Part shown: piece after piece, positions 3,118 to 32,712 of the stretch
Layout of the letters: each line of letters starts with the position of its first letter
How positions within the stretch are numbered: position 1 is the stretch's first letter
Source: Paludibacteraceae bacterium
GTDB lineage: Bacteria > Bacteroidota > Bacteroidia > Bacteroidales > Paludibacteraceae
DNA: 35,653 bases
Reading direction: 5' to 3'
NCBI GenBank assembly: GCA_017439235.1
Contig: JAFSJN010000023.1
Span: 1-35,653 of the forward strand
Translations under genes and position numbers: made by a program
The notes under the pieces: generated by a model
What the model was told of the DNA's origin: nothing
What the model saw: the letters and a program-made list of their open reading frames with translations, nothing else
The model's database searches: none

Positions 3118-4513
3118 GATAACCGGCATAGCCGCAGAAGGAAAGGCGTTGGTCCGATTAGGAATTAGTGATTCTCGATTAGAGAATACCTCTGACGGGA
3201 TAGTGTGTTTTGTGCCGTACTGCGTGCCGGGCGACATAGTGGACCTGCAAGTGACGCGCAAGAAACACTCGTTTATGGAAGCCCGCGTAGCGCGCCTGAT
3301 ACAGCCCTCACCGCTGCGTTGCGATGCCGTATGCCAACACTATGGCACCTGCGGCGGATGCAAATGGCAGATACTGCCCTACGAGGAACAGAAACGATGG
3401 AAACGCCAACAGGTAGAAGATAACCTGCGCCGCATAGGACATATCGAATTGCCCGAGATACAGCCCACCTTAGGCTCCGCTAAGATTTACGGCTATCGAA
3501 ACAAACTGGAGTTCACCTTTGCCGACCATAAATGGCTGACTACGGAGCAGATGCGCGCCGGTGTACCATTTGAGCCGGGACTGGGCTTTCATATTCCCAA
3601 CTGTTTCGATAAGGTGCTGCAGATAGATACTTGTCACCTGATGGACCCGCTCAACAATGAAATAAGGAACACAGCGCGCGCATACGCGATAGAGCACGGT
3701 CTGACTTTCTACAACGAACACTCGCACCAGGGCCAGTTACGTAACCTCATCCTGCGCACCAATCACGCCGGTGAATGGATGGTCATCGTCGTCTTCGGCG
3801 AGCCTCTGACGGAAGCGGGCAAGGGACTGTTAGAGCATCTGAGCACGCAGTTCCCGCAAATCATCAGCCTGCTGTACTGCGTGAACGAGAAGATGAACGA
3901 CACCATAGGCGACCAGGAAATACTCGTCTATCGCGGTCAGGACTATATCATGGAGCGGATGGAAGATCTGCAGTTCAAAGTAGGTCCCAAATCGTTCTAC
4001 CAAACCAATACCGACCAGGCGTATGAGCTATACAAAGTAGCCCGCGAATATGCCGCACTGACGGGCACGGAGACGGTCTATGACCTCTACACCGGCACCG
4101 GCACGATAGCTAATTTCGTAGCCCGCAAGGCTCAAAAAGTAGTAGGTATCGAATATGTGCCGGAAGCGATAGAGGACGCTAAGATAAATGCGAAGATAAA
4201 CGGCATCGACAACACGGAATTCTTCGCGGGGGACATGAAGGACATTCTTACCGACGCGTTCGTGGCTTCACACGGCCGTCCGGACGTCATCATCACCGAC
4301 CCGCCACGCGCCGGAATGCACGAAGATGTTATCAAAGTAATCTTAGCTGCTGCCCCGCGCAGGATAGTATATGTGAGTTGCAATCCCGCCACCCAGGCAC
4401 GCGACTTGCAAATGATGGACGAGGCTTATAAGGTAACCCGCGTACAGCCCGTAGATATGTTTCCGCACACGCAGCATGTAGAGAACGTTGTACTGTTAGA
4501 GGCGAGGGCATAA
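3080..4513 (+). CDS. rlmD: 23S rRNA (uracil-C5)-methyltransferase, RlmD/RumA type
   Basis: 477 aa. An SAM-dependent enzyme of the TrmA/RumA family that methylates a conserved uracil of 23S rRNA. A TRAM RNA-binding domain covers residues about 8-75. The 4Fe-4S ligands are visible as C85-x5-C91-x2-C94 (CQHYGTCGGC) with C185 as the probable fourth. The SAM site is YDLYTGTGT, then VGIEYVPEAIEDA, TDPPRAG, and the catalytic C434 in YVSCNPAT. I chose the ATG at 3080 because the TRAM domain begins just after it; an ATG at 3029 only adds residues overlapping the upstream gene. Between EGKALVRL and IVCFVPY there are about 12 residues (GISDSRLENTSDG) that I do not expect in homologues; they are encoded by the heptad repeat at 3156-3190. 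The exact target uracil cannot be read from sequence. Confidence 0.88.
   Translation: MKKKNLPLLEHIEITGIAAEGKALVRLGISDSRLENTSDGIVCFVPYCVPGDIVDLQVTRKKHSFMEARVARLIQPSPLRCDAVCQHYGTCGGCKWQILPYEEQKRWKRQQVEDNLRRIGHIELPEIQPTLGSAKIYGYRNKLEFTFADHKWLTTEQMRAGVPFEPGLGFHIPNCFDKVLQIDTCHLMDPLNNEIRNTARAYAIEHGLTFYNEHSHQGQLRNLILRTNHAGEWMVIVVFGEPLTEAGKGLLEHLSTQFPQIISLLYCVNEKMNDTIGDQEILVYRGQDYIMERMEDLQFKVGPKSFYQTNTDQAYELYKVAREYAALTGTETVYDLYTGTGTIANFVARKAQKVVGIEYVPEAIEDAKINAKINGIDNTEFFAGDMKDILTDAFVASHGRPDVIITDPPRAGMHEDVIKVILAAAPRRIVYVSCNPATQARDLQMMDEAYKVTRVQPVDMFPHTQHVENVVLLEARA
3156..3190 (+). repeat. Five-unit heptad array inside rlmD
   Basis: Five consecutive 7-nt units beginning GATTAGG and AATTAGT, then GATTCTC, GATTAGA and GAATACC. 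It aligns unit by unit with the array at 18032-18066. It codes for residues of the apparent insertion in the TRAM domain of RlmD. Confidence 0.6.
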
Positions 4514-4517
4514 AAAA
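4512..4517 (-). terminator. ffs: T-tract at the 3' end of the SRP RNA
   Basis: Six T residues on the minus strand directly follow the closing strand of the SRP RNA terminal helix (CCTGTCC). The RNA's own helix plus this tract can serve as the terminator. The tract overlaps the rlmD stop codon at 4511-4513. Confidence 0.55.
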
Positions 4518-4614
4518 GGACAGGCTCTCTACATCGCACCGCTACAACCTCCTACCCTTGCTTCGGTCAAGACCTGGGGGAATTCAGAGGGAGCTGGTCG
4601 TATAGCACCTGTCC
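4518..4614 (-). ncRNA. ffs: Bacterial signal recognition particle RNA (4.5S type)
   Basis: About 97 nt. The 5' GGACAGG pairs exactly with the 3' CCTGTCC. The SRP54/Ffh-binding core is present: CAGGTC, a 6-nt apical segment and GAAGCA, which matches the Escherichia coli 4.5S core with its CGGAAG apex replaced by TTGACC. The flanking strands can continue the hairpin (CCC with GGG, CTCC with GGAG), and GATGTAG near the 3' end also resembles 4.5S RNA. A promoter stands at 4631-4662. The RNA would guide Ffh-dependent insertion of inner-membrane proteins. The apparent lack of a GNRA tetraloop is unusual against the E. coli model. It is convergent with rlmD and abuts its stop codon. Confidence 0.85.
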
Positions 4615-4630
4615 TAAACGAATCCGGCTG

Positions 4631-4662
4631 CAAAGGTACAACAAATTTTTGACTTACGCAAA
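4631..4662 (-). promoter_or_regulatory. Promoter of the SRP RNA
   Basis: On the minus strand TTTG (complement of 4659-4662), 20 nt, TACCTTTG (complement of 4631-4638). The predicted start is about 10 nt upstream of the mature 5' end, implying a short trimmed leader. The -33 box continues as TTTGCGTA, as in several other promoters here. Confidence 0.7.
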
Positions 4663-4682
4663 TTTTTGGGGAAGAAATTAAA

Positions 4683-4717
4683 AATTTTCGATTAGTGATT
4701 AGTGATTAGGGATTTTA
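4683..4717 (+). repeat. Heptad array carrying the start codon of the helicase gene
   Basis: GATTAGT twice (4690-4703), then GATTAGG and GATTTTA, preceded by a looser AATTTTC (4683-4689): five 7-nt units in all. The GTG start codon at 4702 spans the junction of two units. Confidence 0.65.
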
Positions 4718-6027
4718 TTATACGACGCATATATGCCGCTTTGCCATTCAAGGCGAATGAGGATCAGGAGGCCGCCATCAGCAGTTTGGCGACCTTTTTG
4801 AGCAGTCGTGATGAGCGTCCCGCTTTTCTGCTGAGCGGCTATGCCGGCACCGGTAAGACGAGTGTTGTCAGTGCCTTAGTCAAAGCCATGCACGAATTGC
4901 AGCAACCCTGTGTACTATTAGCCCCTACCGGGCGAGCCGCTAAGGTGATGAGTCACTATTCAGGTTTTCAGGCTTTTACGATACATAAATGGATTTACCA
5001 CTGCCATCCGGAGACGATGGAGTTTCGGCTGGGCTACAACAAAGCGCAAAACACGCTCTTTGTGGCCGACGAGGCGAGTATGATAGATATGCAGGTGCTG
5101 AACGACCTGATACAATTTGTGTTCCAGGGTCAGGGTTGCCGTCTTCTGCTCTTGGGCGACGAGGCACAGCTTCCGCCAGTCGGTTATGACGAGAGTCCGG
5201 CACTGGATAAGCCCACCTTAGCCTCGTACGGGCTGAATATGTATACCGCCCGATTGACACAAGTGGCCCGACAAGCCGAGCAAAGCGGTATATTACTGAA
5301 CGCCACCACCTTACGTGAGCGATTGGAGATAACTCCCACGCCCGATGTATGCTATATAGAACCGGCACAGGTAGCGGAGACCATAGAACAGAGTTACCGC
5401 GAAGTAGGCCTCGAGGAGACCCTCGTCATCACGCGCAGCAACCGCCGCACCAACCTCTACAACCAAGGCATCCGTGCGCAGATTCTATGGCGCGAAGATA
5501 TCCTGCAGGCGGGCGACAGAATTATGGTGTCGCGCAACAACTATTTCTGGACGCTGCAGTACGATGATCTACCCTTCCTGGCTAATGGCGACATGCTGGA
5601 GATTGTGCGTATGCGCAACGAACGCGAGATATACGGTTTCCGCTTTGCCGATGCGGTCTTGCGCAGTCTGGACTACGAATGGGAGATAGACGCCGTCGTA
5701 TGGTTGGACACGCTGACGACCGCCACGCCGGAAGAGAGTTATCAGTTGCAGCGCACCCTCTACGGCAAGATAGCGGAAGACTATCCCGAGATACGCAGTA
5801 AGAAAGAGTTACGCGACAAGGTAACCGCCTCACCCTACTACAACGCCCTGCAAATCCGCTATGCCTATGCCGTGACCTGCCATAAATCACAAGGCGGACA
5901 ATGGAGACACATCATCATCGATGCCGGACCTGCACCCGAAGATTTGAGCGAAAAAGATGACCTCAGATGGCATTATACTGCCCTTACCAGGGCCACAGAA
6001 CAGGTGTATTTGTTAAAAAACAAATAA
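4702..6027 (+). CDS. RecD-like superfamily 1 DNA helicase / ATP-dependent exonuclease subunit
   Basis: 441 aa. A soluble ATPase with Walker A GYAGTGKTS at residues 46-54, Walker B VADEASMID, motif III LLGDEAQLPPVG, and C-terminal helicase motifs TCHKSQGGQW and HYTALTRATEQVYL. This is the compact RecD-like helicase widespread in Bacteroidales, without RecB or RecC partners beside it; a role in DNA repair is inferred from the family. The start is GTG at 4702: a stop lies two codons upstream, and the N-terminal residues (IRDFIIRRIYAALPF) agree with what I know of related proteins. The start codon lies inside the repeat at 4683-4717. No clear promoter is seen in the 85 nt between it and the SRP RNA. 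Confidence 0.85.
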   Translation: MIRDFIIRRIYAALPFKANEDQEAAISSLATFLSSRDERPAFLLSGYAGTGKTSVVSALVKAMHELQQPCVLLAPTGRAAKVMSHYSGFQAFTIHKWIYHCHPETMEFRLGYNKAQNTLFVADEASMIDMQVLNDLIQFVFQGQGCRLLLLGDEAQLPPVGYDESPALDKPTLASYGLNMYTARLTQVARQAEQSGILLNATTLRERLEITPTPDVCYIEPAQVAETIEQSYREVGLEETLVITRSNRRTNLYNQGIRAQILWREDILQAGDRIMVSRNNYFWTLQYDDLPFLANGDMLEIVRMRNEREIYGFRFADAVLRSLDYEWEIDAVVWLDTLTTATPEESYQLQRTLYGKIAEDYPEIRSKKELRDKVTASPYYNALQIRYAYAVTCHKSQGGQWRHIIIDAGPAPEDLSEKDDLRWHYTALTRATEQVYLLKNK

Positions 6028-6030
6028 ATA

Positions 6031-6062
6031 TTTGGTCATATCAAAAATATTTTGTAATTTTG
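6031..6062 (+). promoter_or_regulatory. Promoter of the 6100-17769 gene run
   Basis: TTTG at 6031-6034, a 20-nt spacer and TAATTTTG at 6055-6062. The predicted start is near 6069, directly after the helicase gene, which excludes the upstream TTG at 6067 as a start codon for the next gene. Confidence 0.7.
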
Positions 6063-6068
6063 CGCGTT

Positions 6069-6103
6069 GATTTGTAATTTATACAGCAAAATGCAAAATA
6101 TGA
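6069..6103 (+). repeat. Possible weak heptad array in front of the lipoprotein gene
   Basis: The stretch can be read in 7-nt steps (GATTTGT, AATTTAT and so on), and GCAAAAT occurs twice in tandem at 6086-6099, directly before the ATG at 6100. It is weaker than the other arrays and could be chance in AT-rich leader DNA. Confidence 0.3.
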
Positions 6104-7965: not shown

Positions 7966-7977
7966 GGAGGCAGGACA

Positions 7978-10461
7978 ATGAAGACACTACGACGTTTCGC
8001 ACTTATCGCCCTGACCCTTGTCACGGCATCGGTATCGGCCCAAGAGGTTGCCACATTATTCTTCCTGGAGAATGCTCCTATGCGTCATATGCTCAACCCG
8101 GCCTTCCAACCGGTGAGTGACGGCTATGTATTAGTATCGCCATTGGGCTATACCAGTCTATGGTTGGGTAATAACTCGCTGACCGCCAGCGACCTCATCT
8201 TCAAGCAGAACGGTCAGACAGTCACCGCCCTGCACCCGGACGTAAGCAGAAGCACGGTATTGAAACCAATCCGCAAAGTGACCCTCAACGATATGTCGCT
8301 GACGATGAACTTAGCCAGTTTTGGATTCCGCTACAAAGAGAAAGGCTATATACATATCGGCATCTCGGAGCGCGTAGAGGTCGGTCTGTCGGTGCCCCGT
8401 ACGCTTGCTGAGTTCGTATTGGACGGCGGGATGGCCAACCCGGATGGTATCAACTCGTATGATATCACCCGTTTGGGTTCACGTATGAGTGCGTACATGG
8501 AGATTGCCGGAGGCTATTCGCACCAACTCAACGAGAAGTGGACGATAGGTGGTAAGTTGAAATTCCTATTGGGCCACGCGTATATAGGCTTCCATAACAA
8601 CGACCTGAAGATCAAGACCTCGACCGAATCGTGGCATATACAAGGTACAGGTAACGTAGTTATCGCCGCTCCCATCAACAAGAGCGTGCTGCCTAACGAG
8701 TTGACCTACGACAATACCAAGGGTATCAACGTAGGTGACCTGCTCAAAGGCCTGGCTGCAGCCGACTATATAGAGCCGCAAGGTTACGGTGCTGCCTTAG
8801 ACTTCGGTTTTACCTATAAGCCCCATAAACAGGTGCAGATCTCTGCCGCCCTGAACGACTTAGGATTCATCGTCTGGAACAAAGGATATTCCTATAAGAC
8901 ATCCGATGACTCGATATACACCGGCATACCGGGCATGCAATACGACCGTTATAAGGATGCCAATAATAAGTTCGACAGTCAGAAATTGCTGGACGATGTA
9001 GTAGACGCCCTCGAGAACTACGCCCGCAGTATCCACTCGCAGACGCATACAACCAGTTTCACCCGCATGCTCTCGGCTCGATTGAATGTAGGTGTAGATG
9101 CCAACTTCTGCCACAACATCTTAGGTGTAGGCATATTAAGCAAAACACGTCTATTCAACAACCGTCTGTACGAGGAGGTAACAATAGGCGGCGCTGTACG
9201 TCCCGTAAACTGGTTTAACTTCGCCCTCTCCTACTCGCTCATCAACAACGGTAAGTACAGCAACTTTGGTGCCGGTATCAGTATTATGCCTTACGACGGC
9301 ATCAATATGACGCTGGCTATGGACTATATCCCCACCACCTATGCATATACAGGCAAGGCCCCCATCCCGTACAAGACCAGCGGAGTGAATCTCGCCTTAG
9401 GCTTCTCCATCGTATGGGGCACCAACCACAAGCCCGACCAGGATAAGGACGGCGTATGGGATAAGATAGATATGTGTCCCAATACACCCAGAAATATAAC
9501 AGTAGACCTGTTGGGTTGTCCTATGGACACCGATGGCGACGGAGTGCCCGACTATTTGGACCAATGCCCGGAGACTTCGGAGAAAGCCTACGGATTGATA
9601 GATACCTTAGGATGTCCGTTAGATACCGACAGCGATGGCGTTGCCGATTATCTGGACCGCTGTCCGCATACGTTGCCCGAAGCAAGAGCCTATGTTGACT
9701 CCTTAGGTTGCGATAAAGACACCGATGGCGACGGCGTACCAGACTATATGGATTCGTGTCCCAACACGTTACCAGAGGCCAGAGCCTATGTAGACGGTCT
9801 CGGTTGCGACAAGGATACCGATGGCGACGGAGTGCCCGACTACCGCGACCAGTGTCCGGACACCAAACCGGAAGCTATTCCATTTATCGACTCGCTCGGT
9901 TGCGACCGCGACGACGACGGTGACGGTGTTCCGAACTATATTGACAAATGTCCCGAGCAACCCGGTCCCGCTTACAACAGCGGATGCCCGGAGGTGAAGA
10001 AAGAGGTTCGTAACCTGCTCAAGAAAGCTATGCAGGGTATCCAGTTCGAGACCGGTAAAGCCATCATTAAGTCCTCGAGTAATCCTATCATGAATGAGAT
10101 AGCGGCACAGTTTATCGCTAATCCCAATTACATGATAGAGGTACAAGGTCACACCGATAACGTCGGCAAGCCTGAGCGCAACAAAGAACTCAGTCAGCAG
10201 CGTGCCGAAGCGGTACGTGAGTACCTGATTGGTGCCGGTGTACCTGCAGAGCGTCTGACGGCCGTAGGTTATGGTGACGAGATGCCCATTGCAGACAACA
10301 AGACCAAGAAAGGTCGTGCCGAGAATCGCCGCGTAGCCTTCGACATAACGATAGAGCAGATATCTTACGAGACTATCTATGACCACGCCGATTCTACCCT
10401 CCTCCGTCAACACTTAGAGGAGATAAAGGCTATGCAGATGCCGCAAGAAGAACAAAAATAA
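7978..10461 (+). CDS. OmpA-family outer membrane protein with DUF5723-like barrel and six TSP3 repeats
   Basis: 827 aa. Signal peptide at residues 1-22 (ending VSAQ). Residues about 23-480 look like a membrane beta-barrel of the DUF5723 kind. Residues about 487-671 carry six thrombospondin type-3 calcium repeats of roughly 32 aa with DxDGDGVPDYxDxCP cores. Residues about 680-805 are an OmpA C-terminal peptidoglycan-binding domain (IQFETGKAII, VQGHTDNVG, RLTAVGYGDEMP, RRVAFD). It probably links outer membrane and cell wall. A GGAGG sits about 10 nt before the ATG, an unusually clear Shine-Dalgarno for this phylum. Repeat units at DNA level are nearly identical (for example around 9528 and 9821), so repeat number could vary between strains. 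Confidence 0.88.
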   Translation: MKTLRRFALIALTLVTASVSAQEVATLFFLENAPMRHMLNPAFQPVSDGYVLVSPLGYTSLWLGNNSLTASDLIFKQNGQTVTALHPDVSRSTVLKPIRKVTLNDMSLTMNLASFGFRYKEKGYIHIGISERVEVGLSVPRTLAEFVLDGGMANPDGINSYDITRLGSRMSAYMEIAGGYSHQLNEKWTIGGKLKFLLGHAYIGFHNNDLKIKTSTESWHIQGTGNVVIAAPINKSVLPNELTYDNTKGINVGDLLKGLAAADYIEPQGYGAALDFGFTYKPHKQVQISAALNDLGFIVWNKGYSYKTSDDSIYTGIPGMQYDRYKDANNKFDSQKLLDDVVDALENYARSIHSQTHTTSFTRMLSARLNVGVDANFCHNILGVGILSKTRLFNNRLYEEVTIGGAVRPVNWFNFALSYSLINNGKYSNFGAGISIMPYDGINMTLAMDYIPTTYAYTGKAPIPYKTSGVNLALGFSIVWGTNHKPDQDKDGVWDKIDMCPNTPRNITVDLLGCPMDTDGDGVPDYLDQCPETSEKAYGLIDTLGCPLDTDSDGVADYLDRCPHTLPEARAYVDSLGCDKDTDGDGVPDYMDSCPNTLPEARAYVDGLGCDKDTDGDGVPDYRDQCPDTKPEAIPFIDSLGCDRDDDGDGVPNYIDKCPEQPGPAYNSGCPEVKKEVRNLLKKAMQGIQFETGKAIIKSSSNPIMNEIAAQFIANPNYMIEVQGHTDNVGKPERNKELSQQRAEAVREYLIGAGVPAERLTAVGYGDEMPIADNKTKKGRAENRRVAFDITIEQISYETIYDHADSTLLRQHLEEIKAMQMPQEEQK

Positions 10462-10489
10462 GCATATTAACTAATAAAACATTTATACT

Positions 10490-11209: not shown

Positions 11210-11211
11210 TT

Positions 11212-12200: not shown

Positions 12201-12204
12201 TTGT

Positions 12205-13642: not shown

Positions 13643-13648
13643 ACAACT

Positions 13649-17119: not shown

Positions 17120-17769
17120 AAGGCAAGTGGATCTTTTTGAGCATAGGATGGGCAGTACAGGTAATCGCCTATCTGTGGATGCCCGCTAATCCATGGTCGC
17201 TGGTGAGCGGACTGTTAGGCATAGCCAGTGTCGTGCTATGTGCCGAAGGGAGTTTACTGACCTTCTTTTTCGGAGTAGGACAGATACTGACCTACACCTA
17301 TTTATGTTGGTTGGAGCGATTCTACGCCGGCATAGCCATTAACGCCTTCTATTTTGCATCACAGTTTTACGGTCTTTGGCATTGGCGCAGACGCATCGTA
17401 CAAGGCGGCGATATAGCCTCCTTGGCTTCGGTTGCGGTGCCTACTAAGACCCTATCGTGGCGTATGATGGTGATGATTATTGCCCTATTAGGCGGAGCAT
17501 CGTTGCTGGTAGGCTTTCTACTGCAGCGTTTGACTAACGATACGCAGCCCTATTTAGATGCCTTAACGACAGTACCGGCTATCGTAGCACAGATAATGAT
17601 GGTGCGCGCCATTCGCGAACACTGGTTCTTATGGTTCGCTATAGATATCCTATATATCGTAATGTGGATGCGCGCAGGAGACTGGTGTATGACGATGCAA
17701 TATTCATTCTGGTGTATGAATTGCATCTACGGATACATACGCTGGACTCATAATGTGCAGAAAGCATAG
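17116..17769 (+). CDS. pnuC: Nicotinamide riboside transporter PnuC
   Basis: 217 aa, inner membrane, with several hydrophobic helices (VIAYLWMPA, LLTFFFGVGQILTY, MVMIIALLGGASLL). The PnuC hallmark FYGLWHWRRR is present, as are WFAIDILYIVMWM and YSFWCMNCIYGYIRW. It imports nicotinamide riboside for NAD synthesis. The start is TTG at 17116, overlapping the upstream stop as TTGA; no ATG fits the first helix. No NAD-responsive riboswitch is possible directly upstream because that DNA is coding. The last 22 nt overlap the convergent deacetylase gene. Confidence 0.87.
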   Translation: MKGKWIFLSIGWAVQVIAYLWMPANPWSLVSGLLGIASVVLCAEGSLLTFFFGVGQILTYTYLCWLERFYAGIAINAFYFASQFYGLWHWRRRIVQGGDIASLASVAVPTKTLSWRMMVMIIALLGGASLLVGFLLQRLTNDTQPYLDALTTVPAIVAQIMMVRAIREHWFLWFAIDILYIVMWMRAGDWCMTMQYSFWCMNCIYGYIRWTHNVQKA

Positions 17770-18401
17770 CCCTGACTGAGCAGATATTCAATCACTTGCG
17801 GCAAGGCTTCAGGAGTACAATGCGCACTCTTGAGCGAATCGTGAAAGAGAATAATACTGCCCGGACGAACATAACGACGGACGGTACGTACGATCTCTTC
17901 CGCCGTGCGCTGACGCTCATAATCGTAAGTAATGACATCCCATAAGACGATTCGATAGCCCTGTTGGCGTAAAGCACGCAATTGGGAGGGTTTGGCCCAG
18001 CCGTGAGGAGGACGGAAGAGTTTGGATGTGCGATGCTCGATTAGTGATTCTTGATTAGGGAAGCAAGCCGTGTTGGCCAAATAGTCGCGGATAGTAGATT
18101 TAAGTCCCTGCAAATGATTATAGGTATGATTGCCAACCTGATGACCTTCCTCCTGTACCTGTTGCGCCACCTGCGGATACTTGTGTATATTCTCTCCTAC
18201 CTGAAAGAAGGTTGCTTTAACATTATAACTACGTAAGATAGCTAAGATAGCAGGCGTTACCTCAGGAATAGGTCCATCGTCAAAAGTCAGATACACACAG
18301 GGTTTCGTGGCGCCCGAACGAGCGATATACCGTTCTCCCCTCCACACGATAGTGCGCCAAAGAGATTGTATCCACGAAGGTACGCGATAGAGGTGTATCA
18401 T
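17748..18401 (-). CDS. Polysaccharide deacetylase (NodB homology domain)
   Basis: 217 aa. Metal-dependent de-N-acetylase of carbohydrate esterase family 4. Motif 1 TFDDGP (D41, D42), motif 2 NHTYNH (H92, H96), motif 3 FRPPHGW, then LWDVITYDY and ILFHDS give the full catalytic set. It could deacetylate peptidoglycan or a surface glycan. No clear signal peptide is seen. Residues about 113-125 (FPNQESLIEHRTS) look like an insertion just before motif 3 and are encoded by the heptad array at 18032-18066. The promoter is at 18425-18456. It overlaps pnuC tail to tail by 22 nt with no terminator visible. Confidence 0.88.
   Translation of the reverse strand: MIHLYRVPSWIQSLWRTIVWRGERYIARSGATKPCVYLTFDDGPIPEVTPAILAILRSYNVKATFFQVGENIHKYPQVAQQVQEEGHQVGNHTYNHLQGLKSTIRDYLANTACFPNQESLIEHRTSKLFRPPHGWAKPSQLRALRQQGYRIVLWDVITYDYERQRTAEEIVRTVRRYVRPGSIILFHDSLKSAHCTPEALPQVIEYLLSQGYAFCTL
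18032..18066 (+). repeat. Five-unit heptad array inside the deacetylase gene
   Basis: 7-nt units GATGCTC, GATTAGT, GATTCTT, GATTAGG and GAAGCAA read on the plus strand, antisense to the gene. The order matches the array in rlmD unit by unit (18 of 19 bases identical across the core). It encodes the extra residues before deacetylase motif 3. Confidence 0.6.
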
Positions 18402-20156: not shown

Positions 20157-21551
20157 TTATTTTCCGCCGCCACCAAGAGCGATATACAATGCGATAAGTG
20201 CCTGTGCGCCATTATAGAGGTTAGAGGCTTCGTTCAGTTGGGCCGAAAGTAGCGATTCCTGTGCAGTCAGCACTTCGAGGTAGCTGGCCTTACCGCTATG
20301 CATCAATTCGTGCGTACCCTGGTAAGCATGGTGCAGCACCTCAACCTGACGTTTGTAAAGGACATCCTTGTCGCGTGCTGTCTGACAATCGGCCAAGCAC
20401 TCGTTGACCTGGTTACCGGCATCGATGACCGTCTGCACGTAACTATTCAACTTATCCTGTTGATTAAGTTTGGCAATCTTCAGACTGGCCACCAATTTTC
20501 CTTGCGAGAAAATAGGTTGTACCAACGAGGCTGCCGCCTGCATGAGTAATGATCCGGGATCGGCTATCACACCGCTATTGTTAGTCCAGCCGAGTAACCC
20601 GGATAACGAGAACGACGGATAGAATGCCGCCTTGGCTGCAGCCGTGTTATAGAAGGCTTCAGCAAGCGCCTGATCGGCAGCCTTGATATCAGGTCTGTTT
20701 TGCAACAGCGCAGCCGGCACCCCCATACTCCAGCGTTCGGGAAGTTCATAAGTCCCCCACTCTGCACGCTCGATTGTCTGAGGCGTGATAAGCAAGAGTT
20801 TGCACAAGGTGTTCTCAATGTTGCGAATGCTCCGACGCGTATCTACAATCTGCATCTTGACGCTTAGATTCGATGACTCCATTTGATTAACGGCTGTCGA
20901 ATAAGCCTGTCCGTTCTCCCACAAGGCCCGCTCGGTTTCCAGAGAGATATCCCATAGACTATCAGTGGTGATAAGAATCTGCAACTGTTTATCCAAGAGG
21001 AGCAATTGGAAATACTCTTGTGCCACAGTGGATACGAGGTTGGCTTGCGTTGCCGTACGCGAGGCTTGTGCCTGCTCCAATATAGCTTTTGATTTGCGTT
21101 TATTGACCGTCACCGAGCCTGAGATACCAATATTCCAATCCAGCGACAGAGGCACATTATACGACAACGTCGACGAGCCGAGTGTCCCGCTGGAGGACAT
21201 CATCCGAGAGATACCAACTTGCGGAGAGAGACTCAGCGAAGGCAAATAGGCCAACTTAGCTGCCTTAAGGGCTGCTTGCGCCTGTTCCACGGCTATTTGA
21301 GCAGATTGCAGATCGGTATTACGCGCCAAGGCTGAATCGATGAGATTCTGCAGCAGCGGATCTACAAAGAAATCACGCCAACTAATCTCAGAAGCGGTGA
21401 TGGACTCCGTATTCAAAAGTGAATCCTCCGGCAGTGCTCCGAACAAGTTGTCAGGCGCATCGGTCTGCGATTTATATTTTTTGTACACACCGCAACTGCT
21501 CAGCAGCAGCATACAGCATATAGAATACAGAATACAGTTTTTTGTTCTCAT
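20157..21551 (-). CDS. RND efflux outer-membrane channel lipoprotein (TolC/OprM type)
   Basis: 464 aa. Lipoprotein signal MRTKNCILYSICCMLLLSSC with lipobox cysteine at 20. Two outer-membrane-efflux repeats rich in helices follow (ALARNTDLQSAQIAVEQAQAAL, FYPSFSLSGLLGW, EVLTAQESLLSAQLN), as in the NodT family. It forms the trimeric exit duct of the tripartite pump. The start overlaps the RND pump stop as ATGA. Codons 5-16 of the signal peptide are built from the heptad repeat at 21504-21538. Confidence 0.92.
   Translation of the reverse strand: MRTKNCILYSICCMLLLSSCGVYKKYKSQTDAPDNLFGALPEDSLLNTESITASEISWRDFFVDPLLQNLIDSALARNTDLQSAQIAVEQAQAALKAAKLAYLPSLSLSPQVGISRMMSSSGTLGSSTLSYNVPLSLDWNIGISGSVTVNKRKSKAILEQAQASRTATQANLVSTVAQEYFQLLLLDKQLQILITTDSLWDISLETERALWENGQAYSTAVNQMESSNLSVKMQIVDTRRSIRNIENTLCKLLLITPQTIERAEWGTYELPERWSMGVPAALLQNRPDIKAADQALAEAFYNTAAAKAAFYPSFSLSGLLGWTNNSGVIADPGSLLMQAAASLVQPIFSQGKLVASLKIAKLNQQDKLNSYVQTVIDAGNQVNECLADCQTARDKDVLYKRQVEVLHHAYQGTHELMHSGKASYLEVLTAQESLLSAQLNEASNLYNGAQALIALYIALGGGGK
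21504..21538 (-). repeat. Heptad array in the signal-peptide codons of the efflux channel gene
   Basis: Read on the minus strand: ACTGTAT, TCTGTAT, TCTATAT, GCTGTAT and a looser GCTGCTG, five 7-nt units (35 nt). Because 7 is not a multiple of 3, gain or loss of a unit would shift the frame after codon 5. Confidence 0.5.
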
Positions 21552-24500
21552 TTTGTTTCCTCCTTTCCATTTTTCGCTTTCTTCGTTTCTCCGTCCTCTT
21601 TCACCGGACTACCGCTCACTTTCTCTTCCAGGATTTGGAAGATGATGAAGAACGCCGGGACAACGAATACCAAGGCAAGTGTGCCGACCGACATCCCCCC
21701 AACGACACCTAAAGCGAGAGCACGGTTACCGTTAGCACCTGCACCACCCGCGATAATCAAAGGAATCATGCCGACAATCATCGTTATAACGGTCATCAAG
21801 ATAGGACGCAAACGGTCTTTACAAGCCTCCAATGCAGCATCCACGATGGACAGACCTTGCTTACGACGCTCACTGGCAAACTCGGTAATCAAGATAGCCG
21901 TCTTAGCGAGCAGACCAATCAACATAATCACACCGGTCTGCAAGTAGATGTTATTCTCCATACCGGGCAAGCCCATCTTATTACCTACCCATGAGAAGAG
22001 GAAGGAGCCCATCAGACCGAACGGCACAGATAAGAGCACCGCAAATGGCGTAAGCCAAGAGTTATAGAGCGAACCCAGGATGAGGTAAATCAAGATAATA
22101 CAGATAGCATAGATAATGACAGTCATATTGCTCTTAGAGCTCTCCTCTACCTCACGCGACATCGAGCCGTACTCGTATGAACAATAGGTCGGCATAGTCT
22201 CTTTGAATACCTCTGCAATTACTTGATGTGCTTCCACTTCCGAATAGCCATTACCCGGCGTTACGGAACAGGAGATAGATTGGAAGAGGTTGAAGTGCTT
22301 ATGCGATGACGATCCGACAATCTCTTCCAACCGAACAAATTGGGAAAGCGGCGCCATCTTATTGTCGCTAACCTTAATATACATATTGTTCAGCGATGAG
22401 GGGTCCAGACGATACTCGGGCGCAGCACCTACCAGAATATTGTATACCTTACTGAACTGGTTGAAGTTACCCACATACGAGCCGCCACAATATGAGCCGA
22501 GCACATTGAGAACCGCTTTAGCCGTAATACCGGCACGTTGGCATTGGATGGGATCGACGTGGACCTTGAATTTCGGGAAGCGCTCCGAATAAGTGGACAT
22601 CGCATTACTGATTTCCGGACGCTCCTGCAGTTTAGCAAGGAAGGCATTGGTCTTATTACCGAAATCGGACATGTCACCGTCACTTCTATCCTGCACCTGC
22701 AGATCAATACTATTTGAGGTACCGTAACCCGGAATCTGCGGCATCTGGAAGGGCAATACTTGCGCATTCTTGATACTCTTGCAATCCAGGTAGAAGCGAT
22801 AGATTACGAGGTCAATATAGTGTTTGAAACCCGGACGGTCGTCCCAGTTCTTAAGACGAATAATGAGCGTAGCATAACTCGAGCCGTTGGACGATATCAG
22901 ACCATAACCGCTACACAGGCCATAACTCTCCAACTCAGGAATCGCTTTTACCTTCTCCTCTACCTGCTTCATTATCTCGCTGTTCTCATGCAGAGTCGAG
23001 CCTTCCGGCATACGCACCTCGCACATGATTACACCTTGGTCTTCTTGCGGAACGAGGCCCGAAGGCATAATCTTCATAAACAGCACCATGAGAACGATAG
23101 CACCGCCTAACAAGGCAAACGATAACGCAGGACGCTTCAGGTATTTTTGCACAGCTCCTTGGTATTTGCCGAGGATAGCATTATAGCTGGCTTCGTAAGC
23201 AATCTTGGTATAATAGTCAATGCCTTTCCACTTACCGCCTTTTGCGTTTGTCTCCTCGTTAGGTCGCATCAGTAACGCACAGAGCGCAGGACAGAGAACC
23301 AACGCACATACGCAGGAGAGACCTACCGATCCGGCAATCGTGATACCGAATTGGGTGAAGAATGTACCGGATGTACCACTCATAAAGGTGACAGGGATAA
23401 ACACCGCCATAAATACCAACGTACACGAGATAACGGCTACAGACACCTCACTCATCGCCTGACGGGTAGCCTCGATGGCTTTATCCTTAGGCGTATTGCC
23501 TGGCATCTTACCTGTCTCGAGTTTGGCCATTACGGCTTCAACGACGACAATGGCATCATCCACCACCGTACCAATAGCCAATACAAGAGCGAACAGAGTC
23601 AATATATTCAACGAGAAACCGGCTAATTGCACGATAGTAAACGTACCCAGCAGAGACACGATAATCGAAATAGAAGGAATCAACGTAGCCTTCCAGTTCT
23701 GCAGGAAGAAATAAACTACCAAGATAACAAGCAGAATAGCGATAACGAGCGTCTCAACCACATTGTGAATAGCAGCAAAGAGGAAGTCGTTACTGGTTTC
23801 TAAGATCACGAACTCCAATCCGGCAGGAAGAGTCGGTGTGAGCTGTTTATACAACTCATCAATCTGCTGGTTCACCAACGTTGCGTTAGCTCCGGGCGAT
23901 TGGTTAACTAAGTAGAATACACCAGGTTGACCATCCATACTGGAGGTCATCGTATAGCTCTTAGCGCCAATCTCGACAGTTGCCACGTCTTTCAGGTACA
24001 GCACGTTACCGCCTTCGGTAGTACGTAGAACGATATTCTCAAACTCCTCGATGGACTTGAGCGTACCCTTGTACTCCATAGGATATTGGTAAGCGTTCTC
24101 GGACTGCTGACCAAGGGTACCGGTAGAAGTCACGAAACTCTGGGCCTGAATAGCCGACGATACATCGTTCGGTTCCAAACCATACTGCGCCATTTGATCC
24201 GGTTTGAGCCATACGCGCAGGGCGTAAGTGTTACCCAAGTTGCTGACGTTACCGACACCTGTGATACGCAGCAGACGCGGTTTAACGTTGATATCAATAT
24301 AGTTCGAGATAAAGTCTGCATCGTACTTGCCGTCGGTCGATTTAAGACCGGCAATCTGTAGAATACTATTCTGACGTTTGCTCACCGTTACACCGGTCTG
24401 AATAACATCACTTGGCAGCAATGCTTCAGCCTGCGACACACGGTTCTGGACGTTCACCGCAGCCAGGTCGGGATCCGTACCCTGCTTGAAATAGACCACG

Positions 24501-24772
24501 ATAGACACGTCACCCGTCGATGAAGCGGTAGCAGTCATATAGGTCATATCCTGAACACCGTTAATCTGCTCTTCAAGAGGCTGGATAACGGATTTCATAC
24601 ACGTATTAGCATCCGCACCTGTGTAAGAGGTAGAAACATCCACCGTCGGCGGCGCGATATTCGGATACTGCTCAACAGGCAAAGTGTTAAGGCTGATATA
24701 TCCGACCAGCATGATGACAAGCGCAATCGAGATTGCCATCACGTTTCGTTGAATGAAAATATTTCCCTTCAT
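21548..24772 (-). CDS. RND multidrug efflux pump, inner-membrane subunit (HAE1/AcrB type)
   Basis: 1074 aa, normal length. N-terminal helix VMAISIALVIMLVGYISLNTL then PVEQYPNIAPP; periplasmic porter domains; the TM4 proton-relay region LALVLAIGTVVDDAIVVVEAV carries the conserved double aspartate; FMAVFIPVTFM and the second helix bundle (LIYLILGSLYNSWLTPF, GLLAKTAILITEF) follow. It exports hydrophobic compounds using the proton gradient. The three pump genes are in the order adaptor, pump, channel. No regulator gene is adjacent. Confidence 0.95.
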   Translation of the reverse strand: MKGNIFIQRNVMAISIALVIMLVGYISLNTLPVEQYPNIAPPTVDVSTSYTGADANTCMKSVIQPLEEQINGVQDMTYMTATASSTGDVSIVVYFKQGTDPDLAAVNVQNRVSQAEALLPSDVIQTGVTVSKRQNSILQIAGLKSTDGKYDADFISNYIDINVKPRLLRITGVGNVSNLGNTYALRVWLKPDQMAQYGLEPNDVSSAIQAQSFVTSTGTLGQQSENAYQYPMEYKGTLKSIEEFENIVLRTTEGGNVLYLKDVATVEIGAKSYTMTSSMDGQPGVFYLVNQSPGANATLVNQQIDELYKQLTPTLPAGLEFVILETSNDFLFAAIHNVVETLVIAILLVILVVYFFLQNWKATLIPSISIIVSLLGTFTIVQLAGFSLNILTLFALVLAIGTVVDDAIVVVEAVMAKLETGKMPGNTPKDKAIEATRQAMSEVSVAVISCTLVFMAVFIPVTFMSGTSGTFFTQFGITIAGSVGLSCVCALVLCPALCALLMRPNEETNAKGGKWKGIDYYTKIAYEASYNAILGKYQGAVQKYLKRPALSFALLGGAIVLMVLFMKIMPSGLVPQEDQGVIMCEVRMPEGSTLHENSEIMKQVEEKVKAIPELESYGLCSGYGLISSNGSSYATLIIRLKNWDDRPGFKHYIDLVIYRFYLDCKSIKNAQVLPFQMPQIPGYGTSNSIDLQVQDRSDGDMSDFGNKTNAFLAKLQERPEISNAMSTYSERFPKFKVHVDPIQCQRAGITAKAVLNVLGSYCGGSYVGNFNQFSKVYNILVGAAPEYRLDPSSLNNMYIKVSDNKMAPLSQFVRLEEIVGSSSHKHFNLFQSISCSVTPGNGYSEVEAHQVIAEVFKETMPTYCSYEYGSMSREVEESSKSNMTVIIYAICIILIYLILGSLYNSWLTPFAVLLSVPFGLMGSFLFSWVGNKMGLPGMENNIYLQTGVIMLIGLLAKTAILITEFASERRKQGLSIVDAALEACKDRLRPILMTVITMIVGMIPLIIAGGAGANGNRALALGVVGGMSVGTLALVFVVPAFFIIFQILEEKVSGSPVKEDGETKKAKNGKEETK

Positions 24773-24773
24773 A

Positions 24774-24808
24774 AAAAATCTTCAATCTAAAATCTTAAAT
24801 CTTCAATC
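24774..24808 (-). repeat. Five-unit heptad array filling the adaptor-pump intergenic gap
   Basis: Read on the minus strand: GATTGAA, GATTTAA, GATTTTA, GATTGAA and GATTTTT, exactly 35 nt. The first unit contains the last codon and stop (GAT TGA) of the adaptor gene; the last unit ends 1 nt before the pump ATG. Confidence 0.7.
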
Positions 24809-25906
24809 TTTTTCTTCAGGAAAAAGTACTCTCTGTCCTTCAACGAGGTTATTGGCTCCTTCGGTAACGATGACGTCGCCCACTTCCAATCCTTTGGTAA
24901 CCACCAGGTCGCGTTCGCTGCTGATACCGATGGTCTCAACGATTGTACTATAGGCACAACTGTCTGCTGCCACCTTGTATACCAGCGATTTGCTCTGCAG
25001 ACGCACTACGGCGTTCTGCGGAACGACCATCACCTCTTTTATCTCAATAGGAACAACTACCGTACCTTGGATACCCGAATAGAGCACACCGTTTGGGTTG
25101 GGGAACGTAGCCTTGCAGGTCAGTGCACCTGTTGTACGGTCTACAGTACCGGTGATACTGGTGATACGACCTTTCTTATTGTACTCTGTTCCGCTCTTGA
25201 ACAGGAAAGTAACATCCGGGAAATCTTCCAACGAACCCTGATCATCCATATTCTCGGCATTTGCACGTTCCTCCAATATCGACTCACTTACGGAGAACTC
25301 GGCGTACATCTTGGCATTACCGCTGACCATGGTCAGATAAGTAGCCGTATTTACTTGGTCACCGGCAAAGACAGGTATCGAACCGATGATACCATCCACA
25401 GGGGCAGTAATAGTGCAGTAGCCGAGGTTCACACGGGCACGGTTGGCCGTTGCCTGGTACTGAGCTACCGAAGCTTGTGCCTGCTTAAACTGGTTCTCTG
25501 CATTGTCAAGCACGTATTTGCTGACGATACCTTTTGCGAACAAGTTCTTGTTGCTCTCAAACTCCAACTTAGCACTACTCTCTTGTGCCTGTGCTGCCAG
25601 CAGATTGGCCTCTGCGGACTCCAATTCCAACTGTGCATCACGACTATCAATACGGAAGAGGACATCGCCTTTCTTGACCTGTTGACCTTCAACGATGCAT
25701 ACTTCCATCAGTTGTCCGCTCACCTGCGGTTTGATGGTGACATCCGATGTACCTTTCAGCGTAGCGCTGTATTTGAGCGGCAGGGTAATGTCGCTCTTGC
25801 TGATGGTCATTGTCTGATACGAAGTCTGAATGGCTTTAGGGATGTCCAAGCCGCATGCAGTCAGCATCAATGCTGCTGCGAAAAGAGTTACGTGTTTGAT
25901 TCTCAT
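24803..25906 (-). CDS. RND efflux periplasmic adaptor (membrane fusion protein)
   Basis: 367 aa. Lipoprotein signal ending LTAC (cysteine 18). A lipoyl-like hairpin half (SGQLMEVCIVEGQQVKKGDVLFRID) precedes a helical hairpin (residues about 95-165), the second lipoyl half (ITAPVDGIIGSIPVFAGDQV), a beta-barrel and a membrane-proximal domain. It bridges the pump and the outer channel. Start 31 nt after lepA, on the same strand, so the pump may be read from the lepA transcript; no promoter box is found in that gap. Confidence 0.93.
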   Translation of the reverse strand: MRIKHVTLFAAALMLTACGLDIPKAIQTSYQTMTISKSDITLPLKYSATLKGTSDVTIKPQVSGQLMEVCIVEGQQVKKGDVLFRIDSRDAQLELESAEANLLAAQAQESSAKLEFESNKNLFAKGIVSKYVLDNAENQFKQAQASVAQYQATANRARVNLGYCTITAPVDGIIGSIPVFAGDQVNTATYLTMVSGNAKMYAEFSVSESILEERANAENMDDQGSLEDFPDVTFLFKSGTEYNKKGRITSITGTVDRTTGALTCKATFPNPNGVLYSGIQGTVVVPIEIKEVMVVPQNAVVRLQSKSLVYKVAADSCAYSTIVETIGISSERDLVVTKGLEVGDVIVTEGANNLVEGQRVLFPEEKD

Positions 25907-25937
25907 AAGTGGTTATGATTTTTGTTAGTATTTTTCT

Positions 25938-30247: not shown

Positions 30248-30249
30248 AC

Positions 30250-31350
30250 TTACTCCACCTTAGCGTTTTGCAGTTCCCAACCGGTCATCGTAGCTATATA
30301 GGGGATTAGCACATGGGCTACTTTGCGATGTGCCTCATAATTAGGATGCGAGTCGGCACCTAAGTTACGGTTGTCGTTGTGGAACAGTCCTTCGAACAGG
30401 CCGCAGTAATGTACGTTCTGCAGTCCGCATTCGCCTGCCACCTGTTGTACATAGGCAAAGAGGTAGTCTTGACCTTTCTTCGTGCAGCACAGGATAGGAT
30501 GTTCTTCTCCGTAGTTAGCTTTTACCTCGTTCAGCAACTGCATATAATGCTCGCGGAAGGCTGGGAACGAAGGCTGCATCTTTACCGAGAAGTCATTGGC
30601 TCCCAGGAAGATAACGGTGATATCCGGGCGGAAGTCCGAGCGGGTCACCTGCCAACGTGTAGTGGCTGTCGAGTCCTCGTCAAAGGTCTGCATATAACGG
30701 TCGGGCATATACCATCCGGGGAGTTTGGTGTTGTAATTACGGGCGATACCCATACCAGAATGGGCGATTAGCATATAGTCGGCATCGAAATAACGGGCTA
30801 CGATAGAGGCATACGATTTAGCGGATGTCTCGGTAGCGGGCGTGAAGCGGTCGGTACGTACGCTGTTCTCAGCGCCGTAGCCGCAGGTGTAGCTGTCGCC
30901 CACGAACTCTATCTGTCTGGGTTTGAGACTGTCGGCTTGTAATAAGTCGCCCTGTACCAGTATCTCTTTGAGCGTGAAGCGTCCTTGTTCGCCTTCGGTG
31001 CGTTTGAACAGAGTGAGCGTATGGGTGCGGGCCTTACCTTTGGCGCTGAACAGGGTGACGATAGTGTCGCCGCTGACAGTGATTACTTGGTCGGGCTCGG
31101 CACTCATCTCGCGGTCCACATAGACATTAAACCAATCTTTTCCCGTATCCGAGCATACCATGCGCAGTTGTGTGCCGGTAAAGCGCAAACGGACATAGGT
31201 GGCGGTCCAATCGAAACTGACGGATGTGCCTTCTTGCCATGTACGACCGACATAGGTGATGCGCGAATCGGTAGCGTGTACGCCCGTCTGGGCATATATA
31301 CTCAGCGTCCCTAAGACGCAGCAGATAAGGGTTAAGATAGTTGTTCTCAT
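30250..31350 (-). CDS. Secreted SGNH/GDSL esterase, carbohydrate esterase family 2-like
   Basis: 366 aa. Signal peptide 1-20 (ending SIYA). A jelly-roll domain (about 25-135; VSFDWTATYVRLRFTGTQL, WFNVYVD) precedes an SGNH hydrolase domain with nucleophile S153 in FVGDSYTCGYG, the oxyanion block FLGANDFSV, and D333/H335 in GADSHPN. This two-domain layout is that of CE2 acetyl-xylan esterases, which remove acetyl groups from polysaccharides. The gene is 2 nt before murF-alr and shares its transcript. The natural substrate is not deducible. Confidence 0.88.
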   Translation of the reverse strand: MRTTILTLICCVLGTLSIYAQTGVHATDSRITYVGRTWQEGTSVSFDWTATYVRLRFTGTQLRMVCSDTGKDWFNVYVDREMSAEPDQVITVSGDTIVTLFSAKGKARTHTLTLFKRTEGEQGRFTLKEILVQGDLLQADSLKPRQIEFVGDSYTCGYGAENSVRTDRFTPATETSAKSYASIVARYFDADYMLIAHSGMGIARNYNTKLPGWYMPDRYMQTFDEDSTATTRWQVTRSDFRPDITVIFLGANDFSVKMQPSFPAFREHYMQLLNEVKANYGEEHPILCCTKKGQDYLFAYVQQVAGECGLQNVHYCGLFEGLFHNDNRNLGADSHPNYEAHRKVAHVLIPYIATMTGWELQNAKVE

Positions 31351-31371
31351 GTCTATGTAATGATTTATCGG

Positions 31372-32397
31372 TTATTCAAAAGCGCCCATTTGGAGCATCG
31401 ATACCTCTTTGGGAGTGAGGAAACGATAGTGTCCGCGGGTAACGTTTTTCTTCGTCAGACCGGCGAAGCTCACGCGATCCAGTTGGGCTACTTTGTACCC
31501 TACTTTCTCGAATATACGGCGTACGACGCGGTTTTGGCCGGAGTGAATCTCCAAACCTATATGCTTGCGGTCGCCCTTCGTGAACTCCAATGCATCGGGA
31601 ATGACGCGTTCGTCATCCAATACGACACCTGCGCGTATCTCGGCTTCGGTATCTTCGTCTAAGTCGCGGTCCAGAGTTACGGCATAGATCTTTTTCTTAC
31701 CGAACTTAGGATGGGTCAGACGGGCTGCCAAATCGCCGTCATTGGTGAGCAGCAGTACGCCCGTGGTGTTGCGGTCGAGTCGTCCTACAGGATAGATACG
31801 CTCCGCGCATGCGTTGCGCACGATATCTATTACGGTGTGGCGTTCTTCCGGATCGTCGGTGGTAGTAACGGTATTCTTCGGCTTATTGAGCAGGATATAT
31901 ACCTTGCGTTCGCGGCGAACGGGCTGGTCATGGAACATGACGCGGTCGGTCGGCAGCACTTTAGCGCCGAGGTTATCTACTACGGTGCCGTTAACGGTTA
32001 CTACGCCTGCCTGGATAAAGTCATCGGCCTCGCGACGCGAACATATACCGGCGTTAGCGAGGAACTTATTCAGGCGAATGGGTTTTGTCGGGTCCTCATA
32101 GCGCTGCTTGTATTCCATGCGTTTCTTTTGCGAATACATACCTTCATTGCGCTGGATACGGGGACGGAAGCCTTCACGGCGTTCAGTGCGCTCCGGACGT
32201 TCTACACGTTCGTAGCGGTCGGTGCGTTCAAAACGCTCACGACGTTCGGGGCGTTCTACGCGTTCATAACGTTGGTTAGGATTGAAACGAGGGCGCGGAG
32301 TGCGTCCTGTCATCGGTTGATTGTCCTTTTGCTCACGCGAACTCTCGTTCTGACGGTAGCCACCCGGACGTGGGGTGCGGTTGTTTCTGTCGAACAT
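31372..32397 (-). CDS. RsuA/RluB-type rRNA pseudouridine synthase with charged N-terminal extension
   Basis: 341 aa. Residues 1-100 are a low-complexity Arg/Glu/Pro tail in which RYERVERPER occurs at 43-52 and again at 61-70 (18-aa period). An S4 RNA-binding domain follows (RLNKFLANAGICSRREADDFI, about 107-150), then the catalytic domain with D209 in YPVGRLDRNTTG and LLLTNDG. It isomerises a uridine in large or small ribosomal RNA; RluB is the closer guess. The tail probably binds RNA; similar extensions are common in Bacteroidota. It is 76 nt downstream of rpmF, with a strong hairpin between. Confidence 0.9.
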   Translation of the reverse strand: MFDRNNRTPRPGGYRQNESSREQKDNQPMTGRTPRPRFNPNQRYERVERPERRERFERTDRYERVERPERTERREGFRPRIQRNEGMYSQKKRMEYKQRYEDPTKPIRLNKFLANAGICSRREADDFIQAGVVTVNGTVVDNLGAKVLPTDRVMFHDQPVRRERKVYILLNKPKNTVTTTDDPEERHTVIDIVRNACAERIYPVGRLDRNTTGVLLLTNDGDLAARLTHPKFGKKKIYAVTLDRDLDEDTEAEIRAGVVLDDERVIPDALEFTKGDRKHIGLEIHSGQNRVVRRIFEKVGYKVAQLDRVSFAGLTKKNVTRGHYRFLTPKEVSMLQMGAFE

Positions 32398-32423
32398 AAT
32401 ACTAAAATCTTTTTTCTACTTAC

Positions 32424-32456
32424 GATATAGGCTCCGGAAGCGCCGGAGCCTATATC
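32424..32456 (-). other. 14-bp perfect hairpin between rpmF and the pseudouridine synthase gene
   Basis: GATATAGGCTCCGG (32424-32437) is the exact complement of 32443-32456, with a 5-nt loop. No T-tract follows on either strand, so it is not a standard intrinsic terminator. It ends 26 nt before the ATG at 32397. It may separate rpmF from downstream expression by processing or attenuation. Confidence 0.65.
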
Positions 32457-32473
32457 ATTGTTGTGTCGCACGA

Positions 32474-32659
32474 TTAAGCTTCTGCAGCTTGCTCGATAGC
32501 GAGTTTACCACGATAGTAGCCACAGCTGGGGCATACGGTGTGATAGATGTAATGAGCACCGCAGTTGGGGCAAATAGCCAAAGCGGGCATTACAGCCACG
32601 TCATGGGTACGACGTTTCGCTTGTCTGGTGTGCGATTGTCTTCGTTTAGGATGTGCCAT
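32474..32659 (-). CDS. rpmF: Large ribosomal subunit protein bL32
   Basis: 61 aa. The basic start MAHPKRRQSHTRQAKRRTHD is the bL32 signature, and a zinc ribbon is formed by CPNC and CPSC (residues about 30-46). Paired with the DUF177 gene upstream as in most bacteria. The usual downstream fatty-acid genes (plsX, fabH) are absent here; a pseudouridine synthase follows instead. Confidence 0.96.
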   Translation of the reverse strand: MAHPKRRQSHTRQAKRRTHDVAVMPALAICPNCGAHYIYHTVCPSCGYYRGKLAIEQAAEA

Positions 32660-32663
32660 AATT

Positions 32664-32712
32664 ATTTACAATTTACAATTTACAATTTCAAATTTACTAT
32701 TTCCAATTTATG
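32664..32712 (-). repeat. Seven-unit heptad array between DUF177 gene and rpmF
   Basis: Read on the plus strand, ATTTACA three times in tandem (32664-32684), then ATTTCAA, ATTTACT, ATTTCCA and ATTTATG: seven 7-nt units (49 nt). It fills the 48-nt intergenic gap and includes the stop codon of the DUF177 gene. Confidence 0.7.

Follow-up and report, generated by a model that had tools for sequence, protein, structure and literature searches.

The stretch of DNA analysed here (the window) comprises 35,653 nucleotides of contig JAFSJN010000023.1 from the Paludibacteraceae bacterium assembly GCA_017439235.1, and it carries six short arrays of tandem 7-nt units (heptads), which lie between genes or in frame within them. 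A five-unit GATT-type array on the plus strand (3156..3190) encodes an 11-residue in-frame insert (about LGISDSRLENT) in the gene of an RNA (uracil-5-)-methyltransferase-like protein (3029..4513, plus strand; PF05958), whose true start is probably downstream of the listed TTG. An array of GATTAGT/GATTAGG units (4676..4717, plus strand) lies between the methyltransferase gene and a helicase-like gene, and the listed GTG start of the latter (4702) falls within the array, so that the real start is uncertain. The GATT-type array at 18032..18066 (plus strand) falls in a minus-strand gene, that of a polysaccharide deacetylase (17748..18401; PF01522), where it corresponds to a loop (FPNQESLIEH). On the minus strand, CTGTATT-type units (21504..21538) form the start of an outer-membrane efflux protein gene and encode part of its apparent lipoprotein signal peptide (ILYSICCMLLLSSC), and GATTTAA/GATTGAA units (24774..24808) fill the junction of HlyD-like and AcrB-like genes. 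About seven ATTTACA units (32664..32712, plus strand) separate a pseudouridine synthase gene from a YceD-like gene, and the plus-strand frame running through them is probably not a gene. All six stretches had been picked out by a sequence-only reading of the window and are present where it had placed them, although its GATT word at 24774-24808 and CTGTAT word at 21504-21538 can be read on the minus strand only.

The 7-nt periodicity was measured as the sliding identity at lag 7 over a 28-nt span, with 50 dinucleotide-preserving shuffles as the control. At a threshold of at least 18/28, five regions were detected in the window (4670-4725, 18021-18061, 21499-21554, 24767-24820, and 32649-32715), compared with a mean of 0.08 in the shuffles. 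Five of the six arrays were thereby confirmed as arrays, but the one at 3156-3190 remained below even 17/28 by lag-7 identity alone, being too degenerate for the test. It is supported instead by a copy at L012:9139 in the gene of a TonB-dependent receptor, which equals it at 31 of 35 bases and is read in the same frame (RLGISDSRLENT in the methyltransferase and RLGISDSRLDIT in the receptor). A kinship between the arrays at 3156 and 18032 had also been proposed; three consecutive units are similar by eye, but the receptor copy is the better partner of the array at 3156.

The scan was extended to a sample of the genome from which the window originates (G000), consisting of 20 stretches of 20 kb picked irrespective of arrays plus the window (435,653 of 1,485,886 bases). 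At lag 7, 39 regions of at least 19/28 and 24 regions of at least 22/28 were detected, against 0.5 and 0 in the shuffles, and thus the genome-scale excess that the sequence-only reading had left to be looked for was found. Among lags 2-40, the multiples 14 and 21 gave 25 and 26 regions, respectively, and every other lag gave 13 or fewer; the best of these, lag 12, gave 13 regions at 19/28 and a single one at 22/28. The pattern (GATTNNN)3GATT had 75 matches, whereas its reversed control had 10. A chance origin of the arrays is ruled out by the shuffles of both the window and the 436 kb of genome. By a simple rule, 15 of the 39 arrays lie within long open frames (the array at 32659 being doubtful); a PrmC-like methyltransferase gene holds three of these and a QueH gene holds one. 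The length is not the constant five units that had been claimed for the element: the 124 arrays in samples of nine genomes had 4 to about 21 units, most often 6, as seen by a detector that is blind to arrays below about 5 units.

Orthologous loci in the relatives differ in the presence of an array, as found when four of the sites of the window were compared within the genus set, which comprises 178 genomes (G000 and 177 congeners). For the methyltransferase, some match was obtained in 56 other genomes and 29 orthologues were examined; 25 had no insert at the site of the 3156 array and four had other inserts. The deacetylase loop of the orthologue L078 holds heptads of the CTCTACA type, and in several further orthologues the peptide has a 7-residue period by eye (in this comparison peptides were used, and DNA only where it agreed with the peptide, as in L078). 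The apparent signal peptide of the efflux protein is formed by other heptads in G035 and G034. At the HlyD-AcrB junction, 17 of 30 loci were readable, namely those with both genes on the plus strand; in eight of the 17 the spacer was no longer than 12 nt (for example, TAATTTATG), and six or more had heptad-like arrays of other words, as judged by eye.

These comparisons bear on the explanation that the arrays are kept for a function, for instance as binding sites of a translation or DNA-organising protein, as has been suggested for the TAACTGA repeats of Beggiatoaceae (PMC4679880). Many arrays are located directly upstream of start codons, and GATT itself seems to vary less than the remaining three bases of the unit, one of the site sets having been selected for GATT. 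However, the flanking genes are kept from species to species but the words are not, about a third of the arrays are in genes, and orthologous junctions are often without an array. No function for the arrays is indicated, and selection for one is considered improbable.

The essential enzyme lysyl-tRNA synthetase (LysRS) provided a second set of sites, in which the arrays occupy two loops. Of the 60 loops in 30 of the LysRS orthologues, eight qualified as heptad arrays when each was tested against 1000 base shuffles (p <= 0.005); G017, G000, and G035 contribute two apiece, G029 contributes loop 1, and G015 contributes loop 2. Because in-frame arrays occur at the same loops in several species, an assembly artefact is thought unlikely. 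The two loops carry the same word family within each of G000, G035, and G017, and nearly the same 31 bases occur in both loops of G000 and G035. These bases are lacking in G026, yet this genome is nearer to G000 in AcrB (93%, compared with 84% for G035). The LysRS loops of G056 and G046 contain 6- and 9-nt repeats by eye. As a separate observation, loop 1 of G026 and G055 (L282, L302) has a common non-heptad insert of roughly 35 bases (GGCGCGGTCAGCGACCGAGG...), possibly another dispersed element.

The arrays are concentrated in one genus, a group of uncultured gut bacteria. The density of lag-7 regions per 100 kb was 9.0 in G000 and ranged from 1.2 (G028) to 31.7 (G046) in samples of eight congeners; pooled with G017 (930,755 bases), the genus had 12.6. 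Of 20 stretches from other Bacteroidales families, three under 2.4 kb were left out, and the remaining 17 families (296,983 bases) contained one region, corresponding to 0.3 per 100 kb. No lag-7 region was detected in 50 kb of E. coli K-12. A general trait of Bacteroidales is therefore not borne out, although 13 of 40 other families had some (GATTNNN)3GATT match and a few had long arrays of their own words. Judged by LysRS sequence, the array-rich genus appears to lie within Paludibacteraceae: the enzyme of the metagenome-assembled genome Paludibacteraceae bacterium RGIG5934 is 90% identical to the query, inside the genus range, and that of Bacteroides oleiciplenus, outside the genus, is 77% identical. 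In G011 (L099-L103), 12 lag-8 regions per 100 kb were found against 4 at lag 7, and thus the favoured period may differ between species.

The words are species-specific. In G000, the word families are GATT followed by AGN or NTC, GATTTAN, GGTTACG/GGTGACG, and AATTAAN, whereas ACTCATA and GATATCC occur in G014, and AAATCTC and AATTATC in G046. Equal consensus words were shared by 3.6% of array pairs within genomes and 0.76% between genomes (0/1000 permutations), neighbouring arrays being included in the comparison. The sequence GATTAGNGATTNTCGATT had 17 matches in G000, at most 6 in any of the 177 congeners, and none in 159 of the 178 genomes. The sequence-only reading had taken copies to be related rather than alike by chance; in support of it, the copies far exceed chance and form word families that are bound to a species.

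Next, the arrays were compared between G017 and G051, two genomes with a mean identity of 95.2% over about 100 kb of aligned stretches. Four weak arrays were unchanged between the two; among the other orthologous arrays, the differences were of whole units, namely 11 units (77 nt) in one array and 7 nt in two. At three sites the array was found opposite unrelated sequence. The linker of PcrA and both loops of LysRS contain ACCTGNN or CAGGTNN arrays in G017 and unrelated sequence in G051, between flanks that are about 94-100% identical. The length differences of 24, 6, and 54 nt are all multiples of three, and the frame is kept. The first codons of GpsA likewise carry an array in G017 and are changed relative to G051.

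The difference extends over the whole genome. The sequence ACCTGNNACCTGNNACCTG had 48 matches at 17 sites in G017, compared with 2 in G051 and 23 at 15 sites in G056; it had no match in G000, G005, and G052, and its reversed control had none in these genomes except for 2 in G056. Ten further G017 sites were examined, and all were in an open frame of 357-597 nt, which in seven cases was open across nearly the whole fragment of 551-601 nt. In G017, the ACCTGNN-type word was found in both orientations in neighbouring genes, and 59 bases were common to two genes.

The junction of LysRS and GpsA, where stop and start codons overlap in G051, contains 545 extra bases in G017. The ends of this insertion are bounded by arrays, it carries a four-helix-bundle gene (PF05635; with its array-bounded ends at L266:2419-2974), and an Rfam search of it gave a single match at chance level. 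Such genes encode the 23S rRNA intervening-sequence protein, and the arrays could accordingly be supposed to travel with them, each gene copy bringing its end arrays; several of these genes indeed have an array at one end or at both. The arrays do not track the gene, however. Array counts and gene copies were uncorrelated over 61 genomes (rho 0.15, p 0.25), the 0.33 arrays per junction (18/54) stand against 0.04 to 0.29 for five other genes, and G003 lacks the gene but has 80 pattern matches. PF05635 as the driver is largely disfavoured and is considered very improbable, with a link to the birth of arrays possible at a few sites.

The structure of the arrays themselves points to replication slippage. 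Over all 124 arrays, adjacent units are most alike, the mean unit identity being 0.73 at lag 7 but 0.62 by lag 28, and slippage is supported because likeness drops with the distance between units and orthologous arrays differ by whole units. A bias of slippage towards 7 nt, explained by the polymerase footprint, was proposed by Mrazek 2007, as cited in PMC4679880 and PMC4692102. Slippage alone would have each array born in place from a chance 7-nt duplication, and the common words would be due to nothing more than base composition or a replication machinery whose bias is particular to the species. The higher homogeneity within G017 arrays (0.267 and 0.381 versus 0.190; 0/1000) and the 6- and 9-nt repeats in LysRS loops of other species agree with it. 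On the other hand, the same words together with their minority variants recur across one genome at many unlinked loci but do not do so in its relatives, the same 35-base array is in frame in two unrelated genes, the units of G000 are mixed nearly as in the whole pool, and neighbouring genes use the word in inverted orientation. Purely local slippage is therefore held to be unlikely.

Ectopic copying was added to slippage because slippage alone leaves unexplained the same words at unlinked sites, the same in-frame array in two unrelated genes, the inverted word use in neighbouring genes, and the 17 versus 2 sites in two close genomes. We propose that the arrays are lineage-specific families of degenerate heptanucleotide satellites with fast turnover in this genus. 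Existing arrays would lengthen, shorten, and drift by replication slippage in 7-nt steps. New ones would arise at a stalled fork or gap, where a 3' end pairs by a few bases with an array elsewhere, copies some units in either orientation, and then returns (microhomology-primed template switching). Selection would purge most of these events and spare those that fall into the junctions of operons, into signal peptides, or into linkers and surface loops, without shifting the frame or creating a stop. That 7-nt slippage together with ectopic copying into weakly constrained DNA explains the arrays is, in our estimate, about evenly balanced between right and wrong. The spread of arrays to new sites is well supported; the copying step would be a template switch, and its outcome may be nearly neutral. 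At the boundary of the GpsA array, the array begins at an AGCAA that is present in both genomes and is also the end of an array unit, and LysRS loop 2 of G051 is bounded by CAGG and CCTG, the two orientations found at the G017 ends, both as read by eye.

Several results weigh against this proposal. The boundary microhomologies were identified by eye, without a control. The order of units is hardly conserved between sites: in G017, the mean run of units in order was 1.51 versus 1.56 in shuffles, 14 pairs had at least three units in order versus 19.5, and only the longest run (7 units) was unusual (11/500 shuffles). In G000, the mean run was 1.20 versus 1.11 (1/500), barely above the shuffles, with 10 versus 5.1 pairs of at least three units in order (21/500) and none of at least four. 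Copying of fixed multi-unit blocks as a rule is thus weak at best by this test. The units of G000 arrays are close to a random draw from the genome pool (0.156 and 0.144 versus 0.117; 46/1000), which speaks against fresh local slippage also; old arrays mixed by exchange would fit both this and the unit-order result. Clustering of like words within 10 kb was not significant (51 versus 41.8 pairs; 33/500) and is suggestive only. The 59 bases common to two G017 genes have a sequence period of 21 nt and are consequently weaker evidence than their length implies. Three G051 arrays were without a counterpart among the G017 stretches sampled, possibly as a result of the sampling; taken at face value, the gain is not one-sided. 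The direction of change between G017 and G051 would follow from parsimony.

The in-frame copies in unrelated genes and the burst in one species of a close pair could also be produced by a small mobile element with an enzyme of its own, similar to repetitive extragenic palindromic (REP) sequences, miniature inverted-repeat transposable elements (MITE), or Rickettsia palindromic elements, whose body would be the heptad array and which would insert into junctions and, in frame, into genes. Three near-identical array-connector-array copies in G000 (L215:997 and two in L220), composed of GATT units, GTGAGGGGCGATAG, and AATTAAN units, agree with such an element. However, neither length nor unit order is fixed, no conserved ends or target duplications were seen in the sites listed, and loop sequence is replaced and not simply interrupted. 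The three G000 copies share stretches well past the array and may therefore be ordinary duplications; in two, the shared sequence extends further downstream as well, so that a larger element may have been duplicated. Among most GATT sites, no shared flanks were found. A mobile element of this kind is regarded as quite unlikely, somewhat less so than a retained function. The sequence-only reading had supposed that the element has its own spreading or maintenance mechanism. A spreading process is indeed indicated, but nothing points to machinery belonging to the element, since the closest likeness between adjacent units and the whole-unit differences between orthologues are as slippage predicts. 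No dedicated enzyme for the arrays was found, no systematic search for enzyme genes having been made, and slippage with ectopic copying would need none.

Repeats of heptamers have been described in cyanobacteria, Xanthomonas, and Beggiatoaceae (PMC4679880, PMC4692102), and the following comparisons also refer to these papers. The short tandemly repeated repetitive (STRR) sequences of Calothrix and Nostoc and the heptamer-rich long simple sequence repeats of Mrazek 2007 resemble the present arrays in having many dispersed copies of tandem 7-nt units (PMC4692102, PMC4679880). Like the present arrays, they mostly lie in weakly constrained DNA, and 7-nt slippage has been proposed for them. The present arrays likewise consist of tandem 7-nt units at many places of the genome, above chance; unlike STRR, they are not nearly perfect copies of one unit but degenerate. 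Several word families share a genome, even close species differ in their words, and about a third of the sampled arrays are in genes.

The GGGNATC and GGGGATT repeats of Xanthomonas and Nostoc (Rehm 2015, PMC4692102) are of the GATTNNN type once rotated or complemented; they are dispersed on both strands and vary in length between species, as here. They are reported to be 89-93% intergenic, to form G-quadruplexes, and to be in the same place in two species in 83% of cases (PMC4692102). In contrast, most of the present words lack G tracts, turnover is fast, many arrays are intragenic, and orthologous loci often have no array or another word.

The sequence-only reading had known of no described equivalent in Bacteroidales. 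Heptamer arrays of Bacteroidetes are not undescribed, because TAACTGA arrays were reported in five of them including Paludibacter (MacGregor 2015, PMC4679880), besides Beggiatoaceae and cyanobacteria. Similar to the present arrays, TAACTGA arrays lie just before start codons, are patchily distributed, and in Bacteroidetes are accompanied by other heptamers (PMC4679880). They consist of one exact word, and their in-gene copies are mostly at protein ends, whereas many words and internal loops of essential enzymes are involved here; the words of the window are GATTNNN, CTGTATT, and ATTTACA, and ACTGA-type arrays were found in one relative (G046). Rickettsia palindromic elements (PMC10969869) share with the arrays that small repeats occur in frame in unrelated protein genes and are tolerated by the proteins. 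They are palindromic, about 150 bp long, and encode a conserved peptide, whereas the arrays are 4 to about 21 tandem heptads without a palindrome of that length or conserved ends. The combination of many fast-changing words with copies in loops of essential enzymes did not emerge from searches of the open-licence literature, which gave no closer system than those of the papers cited here.

Short tandem repeats in bacteria are mostly regarded as filler between genes or as on/off switches, whereas those described here are seemingly written into genes, including LysRS, PcrA, and a PrmC-like methyltransferase, the first two of which differ between genomes about 95% identical. If so, the arrays would be raw material for new protein loops and operon spacing. 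It is a tentative suggestion, which we rate as clearly less likely than not to hold in full, that the satellite makes copies of itself at unlinked sites in the span of species-level divergence, frequently in frame in loops of essential proteins, and that its word is exchanged for another in each lineage. If true, it would be a tandem-repeat copying process new to bacteria as far as is known, and a steady source of loops, signal peptides, and operon spacers. The question of why seven is the favoured repeat length becomes approachable in one genus, in which rich and poor species occur together.

A candidate common core of the arrays, GGAACGATTA, proved to be a separate dispersed hairpin repeat. 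This hairpin-like repeat, TAATCGTTCC-loop-GGATAAG with a variable loop, was found in 66 of the 178 genus genomes, with no match of the reversed control. In G000 it is located at C7:9784-9804 (L236), C8:6105-6125 (L213), and C20:3066-3086, and in relatives at L228-L257. It is often beside promoter-like sequence, lies inside heptad arrays at some loci, and has a paired variant (GTGCCC..GGGCTAAG, L245).

Several further features of the window were recorded. The AcrB-like and outer-membrane efflux genes (20157-24772) are separate here, but in many relatives they form a single frame of about 1,507-1,562 residues, and open frames continue through the junction in several orthologous loci. In-gene tandem repeats of 96 nt (9621-9842) and 27 nt (32198-32273) are unrelated to the heptads. 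An Rfam search of the window, L215, and L220 gave a single gathering-level match, an ordinary Bacteroidales small signal recognition particle (SRP) RNA on the minus strand at 4514-4621, between the methyltransferase gene and the array at 4683.

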